The notes under the pieces are model-generated. The model was not told where the DNA came from, searched no databases, and saw only the letters and a program-made list of their open reading frames with translations. Below are positions 60,701-63,191 of a DNA stretch of 64,000 bases, piece by piece (the first letter of the stretch is position 1; each line of letters opens with the position of its first letter). The translations under genes were made by a program, and so were the position numbers. This stretch comes from Bolinopsis microptera (lineage: Eukaryota; Ctenophora; Tentaculata; Lobata; Bolinopsidae): positions 16,523,401 to 16,587,400 of the forward strand of contig NC_087082.1 in the NCBI RefSeq assembly GCF_026151205.1, in the 5' to 3' direction.

Positions 60701-63191
60701 TATACCAACTGTTAAGGGCAAGAAGACTGAGAAAGAGAAGTTTGCAGGAGGAGACTTCACCACTACTGTTGAAGGGTAAGGTGGCTTAGTAATTAGTATG
60801 GAAGTTTCTGGAAGTCAAAGAACGTTTTAAACCAACTCAGAACGATTCCTTGTAATTTTGAATACTTTCTTTATAACATTTCGAAATATGATATGACGTC
60901 ACACCACGTGATCCCTACCCATTGCCCAGGTATGTGAGCGCGACAGGACGAGGTATTCAGGGAGCAACATCTCATCATCTCGGTCAGAACTTCAGCAAAA
61001 TGTTCAACATTCAGTTCGAGGATCCTGACTCCACCACCGGCGACAAACTGTTAGTCACCATCTGAGTTTTAGATTTTATATTTTTATAAATGTAGGGGAG
61101 CAGGATTTATTACTCCCTCTGATTTGTCTTCTCGTTTGACGGTTTGATGTTTTATCAGATTTTACTGAGTATTAAATTAAGATTTGCATGTACATCATGC
61201 ATTGCGGCCCCTTTACTGTTTACGGCACCTTTACGGTACCTTATTGACCTCTTGCAACAGATTTTAGAATAACGTTATCAGATTTTAAGATTTGCATGTA
61301 CATCATGCATTGCGGCCCCTTTACTGTTTACGGCACCTTTACGGCACCTTATTGACCTCTTGCAACAGATTTTACTGTTTACGGCACCTTTACGGCACCT
61401 TATTGACCTCTTGCAACAGATTTTAGAATAACGTTATCTGCCAGGTTTGCTCACCAGAACAGTTGGGGTTTATCCACCAGAAGTATCGGTGTTGTGGTTA
61501 TGGTACACGGCGACAACAAGGGGCTCGTCCTTCCTCCCAGAGTGGCCATGTACCAGGTACTATAACTGCTTAACTTCTATTTTACTTGGTAAACCAAGTA
61601 CCATTTTATTTTTTATTACTCCAATTCAGTTTCAGTTTCAGTTTGTTTATTTATAGACAAGTATAATAATGGACTCTATTTCGTTTTTCAACGTCTGCAG
61701 TCATGGTAATTTCATTCATTATCTCTATTTCAACAGCTTTTCAACTGTCAACATTATATTTACCTGTTTGTTTGTTGACAAACATTATCTCCCCAGGCAG
61801 TAATCGTACCATGTGGTGTAACTGACGCCAACAAAGACCAACTTAACACTCACTGCACGGAGATGAAGAAGACTTTACAAAAAGCAGGGGTCAGGACTCA
61901 TGCTGATCTGAGGGAGAATTATAATACTGGATGGAAGTTTAACCACTGGGAGCTGAAGGGTGTACCTGTGAGGATTGAAATCGGACCTCGAGATCTCAAG
62001 AACAATCAGGTATGCTCCATAACTATTACTCTCGTCCGTTAAGGATATAAAAATTGTTCAAAAAGTGATTACGTAATATGTGAACGACCCCTATACAATA
62101 GCTATTTTGAAGAAATTGTATATGTGCAAGCTTTTCCCAACCCCTTCTCTTAGAGTCTTGCCTGTTAAAATTGAACGTCTTAGATTTTAATGTTTTAACC
62201 TTGACCAGGTGGTGGTAGTGAGGGGAGATACAGGTGTTAATGTTTTAACCTTGACCAGGTGGTGGTAGTGAGGGGAGATACAGGTGTTAATGTTTTAACC
62301 TTGACCAGGTGGTGGTAGTGAGGGGAGATACAGGTGTTAATGTTTTAACCTTGACCAGGTGGTGGTAGTGAGGAGAGATACAGGTGTTAATGTTTTAACC
62401 TTGACCAGGTGGTGGTAGTGAGGAGAGATACAGGTGTTAATGTTTTAACCTTGACCAGGTGGTGGTAGTGAGGAGAGATACAGGTGTTAATGTTTTAACC
62501 TTGACCAGGTGGTGGTAGTGAGGAGAGATACAGGTGTTAATGTTTTAACCTTGACCAGGTGGTGGTAGTGAGGAGAGATACAGGTGTTAATGTTTTAACC
62601 TTGACCAGGTGGTGGTAGTGAGGAGAGATACCGGTGTTAAAGCAACCCTCCAGAATGAGAACCTGGACGACCAACTCAGCAAGCTCCTTGACACAATACA
62701 CGACGACATGTACAACAGGGCTCTAGTGGAGAGGGACGCTAACATGGCTGTCACTACAAACTGGGAGGAGTTCTGCAAGCTGCTCGACCAGAAGAAGATC
62801 ATCCAGGCTCCGTATTGTGGAGGTTAGTTACAGTGTGGGATATTTCCTTGTGTTTGTGTGTGCGATTATTTGAACTGTTAATTTAGAGAAGCAAATAGTT
62901 TTTACAATATGTATTTATGATAAAGGTTTGATTAAACCTCATTTAATTAAAGTGTCCTTTGCTATTCTTCACTAACATTCCCCAAATCCTGCAGACATCT
63001 CCTGCGAAGAAATAATCAAGAAGGAAAGTGCTCGGACAGAGGTGACGGAGGATGATAAGGCGCCCGCTATGGGTGCTAAGAGTCTCTGCATTCCCTTCGA
63101 TCAGCCCGCTGATGCTACCTGTGAGACATGTATACAACAAAATTGTTGCAAACCCGCCACGGCTTACACTTTGTTCGGAAGAAGTTACTAG
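26583..63191 (+). CDS. EPRS: Bifunctional glutamyl/prolyl-tRNA synthetase (29 coding exons)
   Basis: Charges tRNA-Glu and tRNA-Pro in the cytosol; in animals it is a scaffold of the multi-synthetase complex. Every exon border was placed by GT/AG, phase and conserved protein continuity. Exons 1-9: 26583-26766, 26946-27058, 27308-27416, 27606-27766, 27921-28071, 28256-28425, 28774-28858, 29161-29332, 29537-29722. Exons 10-16: 45084-45175, 45359-45482, 45661-45761, 45900-46036, 46228-46369, 46483-46639, 47190-47250. Exons 17-23: 47733-49212, 49545-49660, 49813-49945, 50128-50246, 50413-50505, 50780-50969, 51164-51345. Exons 24-29: 60651-60775, 60930-61049, 61445-61556, 61797-62009, 62609-62822, 62995-63191. 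Total 5439 nt, 1812 aa; the vertebrate protein is about 1500 aa, and the excess is the WHEP region. Only the exon 4/5 junction is ambiguous (alternative 27761/27937). The protein ends YTLFGRSY, the family's usual terminus. No disabling mutation. Confidence 0.95.
27921..47250 (+). CDS. EPRS: EPRS exons 5-16: class I glutamyl-tRNA synthetase core
   Basis: Residues about 190-715. The HIGH signature is intact in [14 protein letters not shown] (residues about 221-224). Other conserved blocks are [57 protein letters not shown] and LRTTEY. The KMSKS-equivalent SKRK (about 444-447) is encoded across the exon 9/10 junction and so is split by the 15.4-kb intron 9. Exons 10-16 encode the anticodon-binding beta-barrels ([49 protein letters not shown]). 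All catalytic landmarks are present. Confidence 0.95.
28690..28765 (+). repeat. Four tandem 19-bp copies of the exon 7 upstream intron tract
   Basis: The unit 'ttttgctaatattacccca' is repeated four times, followed by 'ttttgcag' and exon 7. Each unit contains a branch-point-like CTAAT and a short pyrimidine tract, so the 3' splice signals other than the AG are quadruplicated. Confidence 0.9.
28843..28943 (+). repeat. Duplicated EPRS exon 7 donor region around a G22 run
   Basis: 28843-28882 (the last 16 coding bases of exon 7 plus the GTACGT donor and intron start) recurs at 28904-28943 with one substitution, separated by 22 G. The protein needs the first donor: using the second one would put the in-frame TAA of 'gttttaagg' into the message. 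Confidence 0.9.
29900..30052. repeat. 7-bp minisatellite (CAGTAAC)n
   Basis: About 21 units, with a variant block near 29968-30005. At the start of EPRS intron 9. The repetitive ORF on the minus strand is an artefact. Confidence 0.9.
30428..30484. repeat. 12-bp tandem repeat (ATTATTACTAAT)n
   Basis: Four to five copies just downstream of the antisense secreted-peptide ORF. Confidence 0.85.
30497..30706 (-). CDS. Putative small secreted peptide precursor
   Basis: A 69-aa ORF, antisense within EPRS intron 9. [19 protein letters not shown] is a convincing signal peptide. An acidic stretch follows ([15 protein letters not shown]) between two dibasic sites (KR at residues 22-23 and 39-40), then a strongly basic tail [20 protein letters not shown] and RTSKTEEKL. 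Signal, acidic pro-segment, KR site and cationic peptide is the layout of many antimicrobial-peptide or neuropeptide precursors. No family is recognised. Acceptor-like 'cttcccag' and 'gcag' lie 10 and 2 nt upstream of the ATG. The opposite-strand ORF at 30531-30764 is a shadow. It could also be a chance ORF, but hydrophobicity, charge order and cleavage sites agree. Confidence 0.45.
   Translation of the reverse strand: MFTLVAVIVMFAITIEAASLEKREVEADEVELEMDQVEKRGKKGKKGTKGARIPGVVLKKRTSKTEEKL
31206..31271. repeat. 12-bp tandem repeat with CACGTGA sites
   Basis: Five to six copies of 'tgtcacgtgatg'. Each unit has a CACGTG E-box palindrome. EPRS intron 9. Confidence 0.85.
31985..35290. repeat. 56-bp minisatellite, about 59 units (3.3 kb)
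   Basis: The unit begins 'ttgagtgcaggctccaagta' and ends 'aaataggtggtgctta'. Copies are nearly identical; common variable sites are G/A in 'agtRgatt' and 'aggtRgtgc'. The array lacks unique spacers and a consistent frame. It sits in EPRS intron 9. Confidence 0.98.
35291..37460. other. EPRS intron 9, no gene seen
   Basis: Two diverged copies of a block of about 120 bp (35405-35530 and 35585-35710, sharing 'gctacaaaata' and 'aacttgtga'), a GTGTGGTAT-type simple repeat (35905-35945) and about five copies of 'tatgtctagtggtcaa' (36311-36440). The rest is AT-rich without coding signals. Confidence 0.5.
37467..37580 (+). repeat. Interspersed repeat copy (family R4)
   Basis: 'gccatcgtggtgtaggtg', 'cctgcacctttacc' and 'tcgacat' match the reverse complement of 38800-38855, and the start recurs at 56713-56740 ('gatgccatcgtggagtaggc'). 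A short Pol III-type element is possible, but no clear B box was found. Confidence 0.5.
38340..39072 (-). mobile_element. Family R1 element, antisense copy, containing an R4 block
   Basis: The right end, read on the minus strand, is 'actagtgtaacccgtgcc', then 'gggacttcactatcgcagtt', matching 7265-7310. The interior shares 'gagttgaaaatagtgtgtgg' with 7472-7495. An R4-like block lies at 38775-38855. The 131-aa ORF at 38353-38748 lies in this repeat and has no family support. Confidence 0.5.
40058..43349 (-). pseudogene. LINE-C ORF2: endonuclease plus reverse transcriptase, one frameshift
   Basis: The first frame (43349-42672) has the endonuclease N terminus: [19 protein letters not shown] (catalytic Glu) and [14 protein letters not shown]. 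The frame shifts near 42675-42700, and the second frame runs to 40058 with [35 protein letters not shown] and KSDHFPVTF, then RT blocks [57 protein letters not shown] and [10 protein letters not shown] (YADD). The C terminus has [11 protein letters not shown] and [13 protein letters not shown]. Apart from the single shift the gene is intact, so it is a young copy or carries an assembly error. The unshifted upstream part of the second frame (42877-42700) is a shadow. Confidence 0.85.
43199..43289. repeat. 14-bp inverted repeat with a 63-nt loop
   Basis: 'tataatacctccgc' (43199-43212) and 'gcggaggtattata' (43276-43289) are perfect reverse complements, within the 5' part of LINE-C ORF2. Confidence 0.7.
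44006..44374 (-). pseudogene. LINE-C ORF1, C-terminal esterase-like (SGNH) fragment
   Basis: An open frame of about 122 codons ending at TAA (44006-44008). It reads [20 protein letters not shown], then [33 protein letters not shown], and [19 protein letters not shown]. The D-x-x-H within HDWLHLN matches the catalytic Asp-His block of SGNH hydrolase domains known in ORF1 of CR1-like LINEs. The N-terminal part with the nucleophilic Ser is missing; an in-frame stop lies at 44375-44377. Confidence 0.65.
44470..44493. repeat. Poly(C) run
   Basis: A C run of about 17 bases, one of several poly(G/C) runs in the window (also 5663, 28883, 53656, 54490). Confidence 0.9.
46811..47115. repeat. 62-bp tandem repeat, five copies, EPRS intron 15
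   Basis: The unit starts 'ttgatggcggccctatcagc' and includes the palindromic 'tgtacattgtacattgtaca'. A separate 39-bp duplication ('acgaatttggcatttgaatc...') precedes it at 46713-46790. Confidence 0.95.
47733..49945 (+). CDS. EPRS: EPRS exons 17-19: eight WHEP domains
   Basis: WHEP helix-turn-helix domains bind tRNA/RNA and partner proteins and link the two synthetase halves. Exon 17 (1480 nt) encodes an Ala/Pro-rich lead, then six nearly identical units ([20 protein letters not shown] to [14 protein letters not shown]) and a diverged seventh ([20 protein letters not shown]). The eighth is encoded by exons 18-19 ([20 protein letters not shown] to KTDYKTLTG). The six units repeat every 201 nt, one being 207 nt through an extra Pro-Ala pair. 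Linkers are [13 protein letters not shown]. Near-identity at the DNA level shows recent expansion or homogenisation. Vertebrates have three, so this is a long version. Long reverse-strand ORFs here are shadows. Confidence 0.95.
50128..62009 (+). CDS. EPRS: EPRS exons 20-27: class II prolyl-tRNA synthetase catalytic core
   Basis: Residues about 1292-1675. Exon 20 begins with a Lys-rich linker ([16 protein letters not shown]), then [17 protein letters not shown]. Class II landmarks: [43 protein letters not shown] (about 1420-1424), [20 protein letters not shown] (motif 2), [13 protein letters not shown], and [20 protein letters not shown] (motif 3). Exon 27 continues with the anticodon-binding domain ([33 protein letters not shown]). 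Exons 23 and 24 are separated by the 9.3-kb intron 23. Confidence 0.95.
51346..51618. other. Start of EPRS intron 23 and GPCR 3' side
   Basis: AT-rich. It contains minus-strand AATAAA complements near 51369-51374, which could end the antisense GPCR transcript. Confidence 0.4.
51619..52620 (-). CDS. Class A (rhodopsin-like) G-protein-coupled receptor, intronless
   Basis: A 333-aa protein with seven hydrophobic segments. Signatures: an N-glycosylation site at the start (NET), N41 in GLLSN (TM1), D68 in SVMDLL (TM2), C97 and C173 as a possible extracellular disulfide, CYIP (246-249, the CWxP position of TM6), and NPCLY (299-303, the NPxxY of TM7). The DRY position reads VVR (120-122), so the acidic residue is missing. 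The ligand is unknown. It is encoded antisense within EPRS intron 23, with no introns of its own. An AG lies 2 nt before the ATG. Confidence 0.85.
   Translation of the reverse strand: MNETAAIKVGEIYERFDGLYAMDLVLGIFLTLCGVVGLLSNTASVLFFLPRLDKSIHDLLYLLISVMDLLTSIGAFPIIVSLFIGRAPGIFANFGFCFLFGIAILFALRMSLFLVVMMSVVRTLVVIKPHYIISRRGLIISVVVYASWLLLVDLVILVQGSLYMKYFFTIAACTLDFYPDKLSWAIFFWYGCLQVQLMLPPFLVFVSFATSAVSMLKRNTQRSRSDEKFKRATITIFFFTSVFLFCYIPCFLYQLAQLVHLISPNSFSHNLIWEPQSILYYTGRLWLQQLTVFLNPALNPCLYFWRMPRFRNWLLALIRINSIKPDTSVTSKS
52621..54540. other. EPRS intron 23, no gene seen
   Basis: Upstream flank of the GPCR, then AT-rich sequence with a short (GTG)n run (53191-53205), poly(C) at 53656-53667 and 54490-54502, and a T-rich block at 53897-53930. 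No convincing ORF. Confidence 0.45.
54543..55383. repeat. 32-bp minisatellite, about 26 units
   Basis: The unit is 'tgatggagtacgggactcta' followed by 'gtagcttatatc'. The first unit lacks the last eight bases. Only two substitutions were seen in the whole array, so it is very homogeneous. Confidence 0.97.
55384..57625. other. EPRS intron 23, no gene seen
   Basis: Contains a 17-bp inverted repeat (56029-56067), short 'accctggttacc' repeats (55772-55810) and an R4 fragment (56700-56745). No supported coding sequence. Confidence 0.45.
57630..60370 (+). mobile_element. Array of about seven 300-bp Helitron-like units
   Basis: Heads ('gactagaaarcccgtgg', then 'acaggg') occur at 58588, 59152, 59464, 59762 and 60065, with a degenerate one at about 57637 and a headless unit from about 58900. 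Each unit also has 'accgaagatacagccgat', 'caaaaccgatcaaaatg', 'ttgcacgtgcacgtgcgc' and 'ttgcacgtgggcggtcgtac', then a (CATA)-rich tail and 'ttctttgaattata'. The spacing is about 300 bp in the last four. The ends resemble those of Helitron-like elements; the class is inference. The tRNA-Leu lies between unit 1 and the rest. Confidence 0.6.
58264..58346 (+). tRNA. tRNA-Leu (anticodon CAA), intronless
   Basis: Acceptor stem GTCAGGA (58264-58270) pairs with TTCTGAC (58339-58345), with discriminator A at 58346. A box TGGCCGAGTGG and B box GGTTCAAATCC are intact. The anticodon stem is CCAGA/TCTGG with anticodon CAA at 58297-58299, a long class II variable arm follows, and the T stem is GTGGG/CCCAC. 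TTTT follows (58352 on), a Pol III stop. It is sense-oriented within EPRS intron 23. Confidence 0.95.
60371..60650. other. End of EPRS intron 23
   Basis: AT-rich sequence leading to the 'cgtacttcag' acceptor of exon 24. No other feature. Confidence 0.5.
61181..61440. repeat. Duplicated 108-bp block upstream of EPRS exon 26
   Basis: 61181-61288 recurs at 61289 onward, and a partial third copy of its end precedes exon 26 (61372-61440). The copies share 'tttactgtttacggcacctt', 'gacctcttgcaacagatttt' and 'agaataacgttatc', that is, the DNA next to the exon 26 acceptor. Confidence 0.9.
62179..62641 (+). repeat. Nine tandem 50-bp copies spanning the EPRS exon 28 acceptor
   Basis: The unit is 'gtgttaatgttttaacc' + 'ttgaccag' + the 25-nt coding start 'gtggtggtagtgaggRgaga' + 'tacag'. 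'ttgaccaggt' recurs at 62201, 62251, 62301, 62351, 62401, 62451, 62501, 62551 and 62601. The last copy is the real exon start (62609). The first three carry GGGGAGA and the rest GGAGAGA; only the last has ACC instead of ACA before GGTGTTAA. Confidence 0.97.
62609..63191 (+). CDS. EPRS: EPRS exons 28-29: ProRS C-terminal domain
   Basis: Exon 28 starts [15 protein letters not shown], continuing NNQ of exon 27. Exon 29 has the eukaryotic/archaeal ProRS C-terminal module with conserved [10 protein letters not shown], Cys residues ([10 protein letters not shown]) in the place of the usual zinc-site region, and the terminal YTLFGRSY with stop TAG at 63189-63191. Confidence 0.95.

Follow-up and report, generated by a model that had tools for sequence, protein, structure and literature searches.

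The window analysed here, a 64,000-nucleotide stretch of the Bolinopsis microptera genome (RefSeq contig NC_087082.1, hereafter C11, positions 16,523,401 to 16,587,400), contains the gene of the bifunctional glutamyl-prolyl-tRNA synthetase (EPRS), the last 16 coding exons of which were resolved. In this gene, a minisatellite of nine 50-bp units runs across the border between an intron and the penultimate coding exon—an exon numbered 28 in an earlier note on this DNA and called penultimate here. The coding exon upstream of the array (61797-62009) matches ligase and synthetase chains of the Protein Data Bank with a best E-value of 6.1e-24, and the exon starting inside the array does so with a best E-value of 4.5e-14. 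The matched chains are named bifunctional glutamate/proline--tRNA ligase, which we take to be the human enzyme, and prolyl-tRNA synthetase (ProRS). Elsewhere in the gene model, the intron separating the exon at 50413 from that at 50751 has unsettled boundaries, the exon pair 49945/50128 is uncertain and, for the intron before 61445, a protein alignment was preferred over the scripted first choice. The features around the array, in window positions, are as follows.

61797 to 62009, plus strand: EPRS coding exon of the ProRS part, preceding the array and ending in ...LKNNQ at the donor CAG|GTATGC, assigned from homology to ProRS structures and the splice chain
62010 to 62186, plus strand: unique intron part ahead of the array
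62187 to 62640, plus strand: nine-unit 50-bp minisatellite, each unit comprising the last 22 intron bases and the first 28 exon bases
62209 to 62586, plus strand: eight decoy acceptors (62209, 62259, 62309, 62359, 62409, 62459, 62509 and 62559), each reading CCAG|GTGG, with CAG|GTGTTA 25 bases on
62609 to 62822, plus strand: predicted true penultimate coding exon, with the ninth acceptor as its entry and GAG|GTTAGT as its donor
62995 to 63191, plus strand: last EPRS coding exon with the stop codon

Tandem Repeats Finder placed the array at 62187-62640 with a period of 50, 9.1 copies and 99% matches, and TTGACCAGG occurs nine times at a spacing of exactly 50 bases; chance falls far short of explaining nine copies of 50 bp at 99% identity. 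The earlier note had counted the nine units correctly, with limits (62179 to 62641) that began 8 bases early and ended 1 base late. Only two positions depart from the unit consensus: units 1-3 have G at position 38, and unit 9 has C at position 46, giving ACC. The acceptors, given as the first exon base, fall at 62209, 62259 and so on to 62609, and share the 20 bases before and 3 bases after the junction. A pyrimidine tract in every unit, as previously proposed, is present but weak (13 of the 20 bases before the acceptor, with a longest run of 4); even so, the array acceptor ranks third of the 14 acceptors settled in EPRS. This score, like all donor and acceptor scores below, comes from a generic matrix that was not fitted to Bolinopsis microptera. 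The tetranucleotide TTAA occurs in both flanks of the array and at the junction between units, which would fit a first duplication by microhomology. A folding analysis aimed at RNA structure that might hide the decoys gave no such signal, as the array folded no better than shuffled sequences (z of -1.06; 16 of 100 shuffles as good), and this idea was discarded.

Protein homology distinguishes among the nine acceptors. Along the ProRS chain 7f98_A, the match of the upstream exon ends at residue 369 (...RDLKN) and that of the downstream exon starts at residue 371 (Q); the join ...KNNQ^VVVV... supplies exactly one residue (N) for this gap. When combined, the alignments of the exons before and after are gapless along the same ProRS chains across ...LKNNQ^VVVVRRDTG..., and therefore fix the ninth acceptor, 62609, as the predicted true exon start. 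Together with the acceptor spacing, this result bears out the claim that each unit combines an acceptor with the exon's coding start and that eight decoys precede the genuine site. Entry at any of the eight decoys followed by read-through leads to an in-frame TAG after 19 codons, in agreement with the roughly 20 codons previously estimated. We then considered the 25-nt microexons that could arise between a decoy acceptor and a CAG|GTGTTA donor; with one to eight of these ahead of the ninth acceptor, stops follow after 18-19 codons in all eight products. An enumeration of 2,584 splice paths, built from the eight decoy acceptors, eight CAG|GTGTTA donors and the ninth acceptor, with re-splicing from CAG|GTGGTG left out, yielded a single path reaching the last exon free of stops—that in which the ninth acceptor is used directly. 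Skipping of the whole penultimate exon brings a stop after 6 codons.

Searched against the genome, two units of the array returned at least 35 matches: besides the window's own, these fall into two other arrays of the same contig. Both belong to a second copy of the array, in the same register and ending in the same exon, with 65 units (16 + 49) compared with nine in the window. The insert between the 16- and 49-unit parts is a retrotransposon of 2,886 bp, whose 745-aa minus-strand open reading frame matches RVT_1 (E 3e-28). The second copy lies ~194 kb from the window array, with ~114 kb of other sequence between the two stretches: C11:16779000 to ~16841775 is collinear with C11:16585139 to ~16665261 (window 61739 onward), and the collinearity is interrupted by several-kilobase insertions on either side. 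With the arrays set aside, the 20 blocks of the collinear chain diverge by 1.53% in 21,640 aligned bases. Beyond 16810000, the second stretch was compared from four pieces of 2.5 to 3 kb, two of them overlapping, up to 16843500; the last collinear block has matches elsewhere as well and is possibly repetitive, leaving the end of the stretch uncertain. No match was found at the thresholds used in the further stretches 16855001-16858000, 16885001-16890000 and 16960001-16963000. Viewed as a whole, the assembly contains two versions of a 60-80 kb stretch that diverge by ~1.5% and carry many insertions, and these look like retained haplotypes.

The three EPRS exons of the second copy differ from those in the window by nine synonymous and no nonsynonymous changes in 624 nt, such that the encoded protein is identical—a pattern with a probability of 2.5e-6 if unconstrained, given that ~24% of random changes are synonymous. 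The donor and acceptor dinucleotides between these exons are intact. Because a promoterless fragment would not be so constrained, the second copy reads as a second functional allele, perhaps misplaced by the assembly. We favour a second haplotype that the assembler would have placed in tandem, or a recent copy of one. In either case, the second copy seems to record a functional allele, not necessarily one that functions at its present length of 65 units, and the array is probably a variable number tandem repeat (VNTR). Against this stands the possibility, less probable in our judgement, that the second copy is a true segmental duplication carrying a 3′ EPRS fragment rather than an allele, which would be compatible with the origin and splicing of the array proposed below. 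The distance of ~194 kb and the intervening ~114 kb speak for such a duplication, as does the lack of any N in the 286.6 kb joined; furthermore, homology to the second copy sets in only within an EPRS intron, at window 61739, and of the 16 resolved EPRS exons C11:16587401-16810000 contains just the three that adjoin the array and none of the other 13. The nine-to-zero coding pattern argues in the opposite direction, as a promoterless fragment should drift unless it had recently been copied from another functional allele. The allele question is not decided by further open frames of the aligned blocks: among the best 12 of 28 frames with at least 4 changed codons, wrong frames included, those other than EPRS range in synonymous to nonsynonymous changes from 5:1, over 4:4, down to 3:4. 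Tandem arrays are error-prone in assembly, and the second copy may itself be misplaced; it is nevertheless highly improbable that the true locus holds one or few units, because the array recurs in the same register, with 65 units, at a second place. The two arrays differ in length, contain internal variants and, in one case, a retrotransposon insertion.

Taken together, the path enumeration and the constraint on the exons of both copies support the earlier view that the gene must choose the last acceptor, a prediction made from genomic sequence. By comparison, the statement that the last unit lacks CAG|GTGTTA (ACC for ACA) holds in the window and fails in the second copy, whose last unit carries ACA. 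Across both copies, the acceptor AG is kept in 74 of 74 units and AGGT at the acceptor in 73. We also looked for selection on the decoy AGs; the 74 units contain 20 distinct variants, a few of them stemming from one unit shifted by a one-base insertion, and none falls in the AG, which has a chance probability of ~0.4-0.5 and is uninformative.

The exon starts with GT, and therefore every decoy acceptor (AG|GT) re-creates a donor, CAG|GTGGTG, with a score of 1.5. By arithmetic, re-splicing through this donor opens 256 paths including the direct one—any increasing set of decoys—all ending in the same correct mRNA. Splicing might thus proceed as a ratchet (recursively) or through dual-specific sites, with decoys used first and the regenerated donors spliced onward to the last acceptor, a route that we consider unlikely. 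The score of the regenerated donor lies inside the range of the 14 settled EPRS donors (-1.8 to 5.5), although this range is wide and also admits the weaker CAG|GTGTTA named in the earlier note (-0.07), and CAG|GTGGTG has no G at +5. The preservation of AGGT in 73 of 74 units, together with the frequency of AG|GT acceptors in EPRS (9 of 14), would suit a ratchet; however, since the true acceptor and 8 of the 13 others are of this type, AGGT would simply be the ancestral exon start. In addition, one-unit steps would require introns of 50 nt, whereas the shortest of the 14 resolved EPRS introns measures 113 nt. Tandem arrays of dual-specific sites have been described in UBC and VCX3A, where, in the account cited, units with AG|GT could in principle serve as donor and acceptor (PMC10809524); AGGT likewise recurs at the same place in the EPRS units. 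The UBC units (228 nt) keep the frame and encode protein (PMC10809524), while the 50-base units of EPRS break it. Ratchet points of recursive splicing, as outlined in the source consulted, share with the EPRS array the juxtaposed AG|GT and a short following exon with its own donor, but are well conserved and occur mostly in long Drosophila introns (PMC8605326), in contrast to the young array in a short intron of EPRS.

The explanation that we prefer, with a probability of about 0.7, is that the minisatellite arose by tandem duplication across the EPRS intron-exon border and was then amplified, and that splicing prefers the last acceptor. A 50-bp segment covering the 3′ end of the intron and the start of the next exon would have been duplicated in tandem, with TTAA common to both breakpoints, and amplified to different lengths—nine units in the window and 65 in the second copy, which is probably the other allele. 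Each unit would copy the acceptor and 28 exon bases, leaving the real exon body and the downstream donor joined to the last unit only. Exon definition would most likely select the last acceptor, making units 1-8 simply intron; rare decoy use would lead to a stop after 19 codons and probably to nonsense-mediated decay, and a wrong first step at a decoy could be repaired by a second splice from CAG|GTGGTG that restores the same correct mRNA. The sequence itself shows the array, its consequences for the frame, the 65-unit second copy and the purely synonymous differences in its exons; we infer the order of events, the allelic reading, the use of the last acceptor and exon definition as its cause. 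The local sequence cannot separate the nine acceptors; their context differs, as a full exon and a donor follow the ninth only. By analogy with the globin minigenes and the ABCA7 array described below, the last acceptor should dominate, and the array would persist because the spliceosome favours the acceptor that leads into the complete exon.

Several points weigh against this explanation, in addition to a segmental duplication as the possible source of the second copy. The nine acceptors are locally identical, the purine-rich exon start present in every unit should help the decoys equally, and a scanning model, in which the first AG after an upstream branch point is taken, would predict the first decoy. 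In the cited passage on globin minigenes with a duplicated 3′ splice site (upstream exon of 14, 55 or 205 nt), the distal site was used exclusively, and very inefficiently, even with the 205-nt upstream exon, indicating that exon length was not decisive (PMC5389562). These minigenes show that a downstream copy can win, not that exon length decides. Reed and Maniatis 1986 is reportedly the reference behind them. Finally, a comparable array in human ABCA7 is not harmless, since, according to the cited excerpts, greater length goes with more skipping of the next exon and lower expression (PMC5954066).

The ABCA7 VNTR, in intron 18 of the human gene, is the nearest precedent and a donor-side mirror image of the EPRS array. 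As far as the cited excerpts describe it, it comprises ~12 to 427 units of 25 bp and starts with the canonical exon 18 donor; retention of one unit reaches ~2%, and it is skipping of exon 19 that rises with length (PMC5954066). Both are minisatellites that include a splice site, and in both the unit is not a multiple of three, so that unit retention shifts the frame (PMC5954066); in EPRS, a copy of the splice site is found in each of the 74 units. The large length range of the ABCA7 array and its canonical exon-adjacent site would have their counterparts in the 9 and 65 units of the two EPRS copies of one assembly, if these are alleles, and in the predicted use of the last acceptor. In ABCA7, however, the donor rather than the acceptor is repeated, and the array starts from the GT, within the intron; RNA evidence exists for it, and its length affects expression and exon skipping (PMC5954066). 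The negative correlation between ABCA7 VNTR length and expression in the same excerpts (PMC5954066) lends some plausibility to deliberate regulation in EPRS, with the decoys as a poison cassette whose copy number tunes output through stop-containing transcripts; the enumerated decoy-entering products do carry an early stop. Yet the adjoining-exon protein is identical at 9 and at 65 copies, and there are further minisatellites in the vicinity, which is what mutation by itself would produce. Nothing calls for a regulatory role, which we rate as quite improbable.

Intron gain by tandem duplication in potato RdRp offers a further parallel (PMC4974935). As the cited portion of that work has it, the duplication likewise spanned a 3′ intron end together with the beginning of the exon, copying branch site, tract and acceptor (PMC4974935), and in EPRS, too, the duplicated unit crosses the intron-exon border with 22 intron and 28 exon bases. 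The two potato copies gave a new spliced intron and an extra exon (PMC4974935), as opposed to at least nine copies in EPRS, where use of any but the last would break the frame: a new intron with both exon pieces translatable is not predicted here, because every enumerated product containing a decoy piece stops early. Tandem duplications across such borders (PMC4974935), AG|GT arrays (PMC10809524) and splice-site VNTRs (PMC5954066) are thus already known. Among the matches listed in our literature searches, which covered titles and abstract openings and reached subscription journals poorly, no acceptor array of the EPRS kind appeared. A high-copy acceptor-side array with frame-breaking units is new as far as these searches show.

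The surroundings are rich in minisatellites, so the overlap of one of them with a splice site is in itself no improbable event. Thirteen arrays (period of at least 20, at least 4 copies, 90% matches), including a coding array of EPRS and the two of the second copy, make up 6.4% of the 286.6 kb. If three non-coding arrays of the observed sizes were scattered randomly over the 3′ part of EPRS, the probability of a splice site being covered would be 0.76, and 0.37 for the 454-bp array alone; both estimates are at the level of the gene and use a splice-site list that includes two uncertain pairs. The position itself is thus ordinary; of interest are the array's survival in an essential gene and its growth to 65 units.

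The locus bears on studies of splice-site choice. In EPRS, 9 and 65 near-identical acceptors occur naturally in a single essential gene, whereas earlier competition studies, such as that with the globin minigenes, used artificial duplications, and the nine synonymous exon differences mark the two copies and would make acceptor choice measurable against number and distance. The locus also indicates that the spread of a minisatellite over a splice site need not entail an obvious loss of the gene. A more speculative idea, which we hold to be doubtful, is that the array is self-erasing: the GT at the exon start would let re-splicing undo any decoy use, allowing growth without limit or cost in an essential gene. 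If true, the locus would provide a natural series, from 9 to at least 65 units plus a retrotransposon, for how the spliceosome picks one of N identical acceptors.

In a genome search, the penultimate EPRS exon was found in two places, both on C11. A decayed processed EPRS fragment with stops lies at C10:2119750 (L021) and consists of a WHEP piece followed by two ProRS exons fused without an intron, the four exons between them being missing; checked as a fossil cDNA of the array junction, it stops short of the penultimate exon. Elsewhere in the window, a non-LTR (long terminal repeat) retrotransposon at 40058-43361, on the minus strand, shows RVT_1 and endonuclease matches in a 939-aa open frame; the 229-aa frame located upstream had no Pfam match. 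A short array at 61177-61425 (periods of 108 and 51, ~2 copies) ends ~20 bp ahead of the EPRS acceptor at 61445, and the 9.3-kb EPRS intron holds, on the opposite strand, a 359-aa open frame (51619-52698, minus) that matches 7tm_1, the rhodopsin-like receptors (E 3e-10). Lastly, the coding array of EPRS, with 6.1 copies of 201 bp at 47801-49023, sits in a 499-aa frame with seven WHEP-TRS matches (E 5e-136); the human EPRS linker presumably has three, and the seven found here would be an expansion by comparison.

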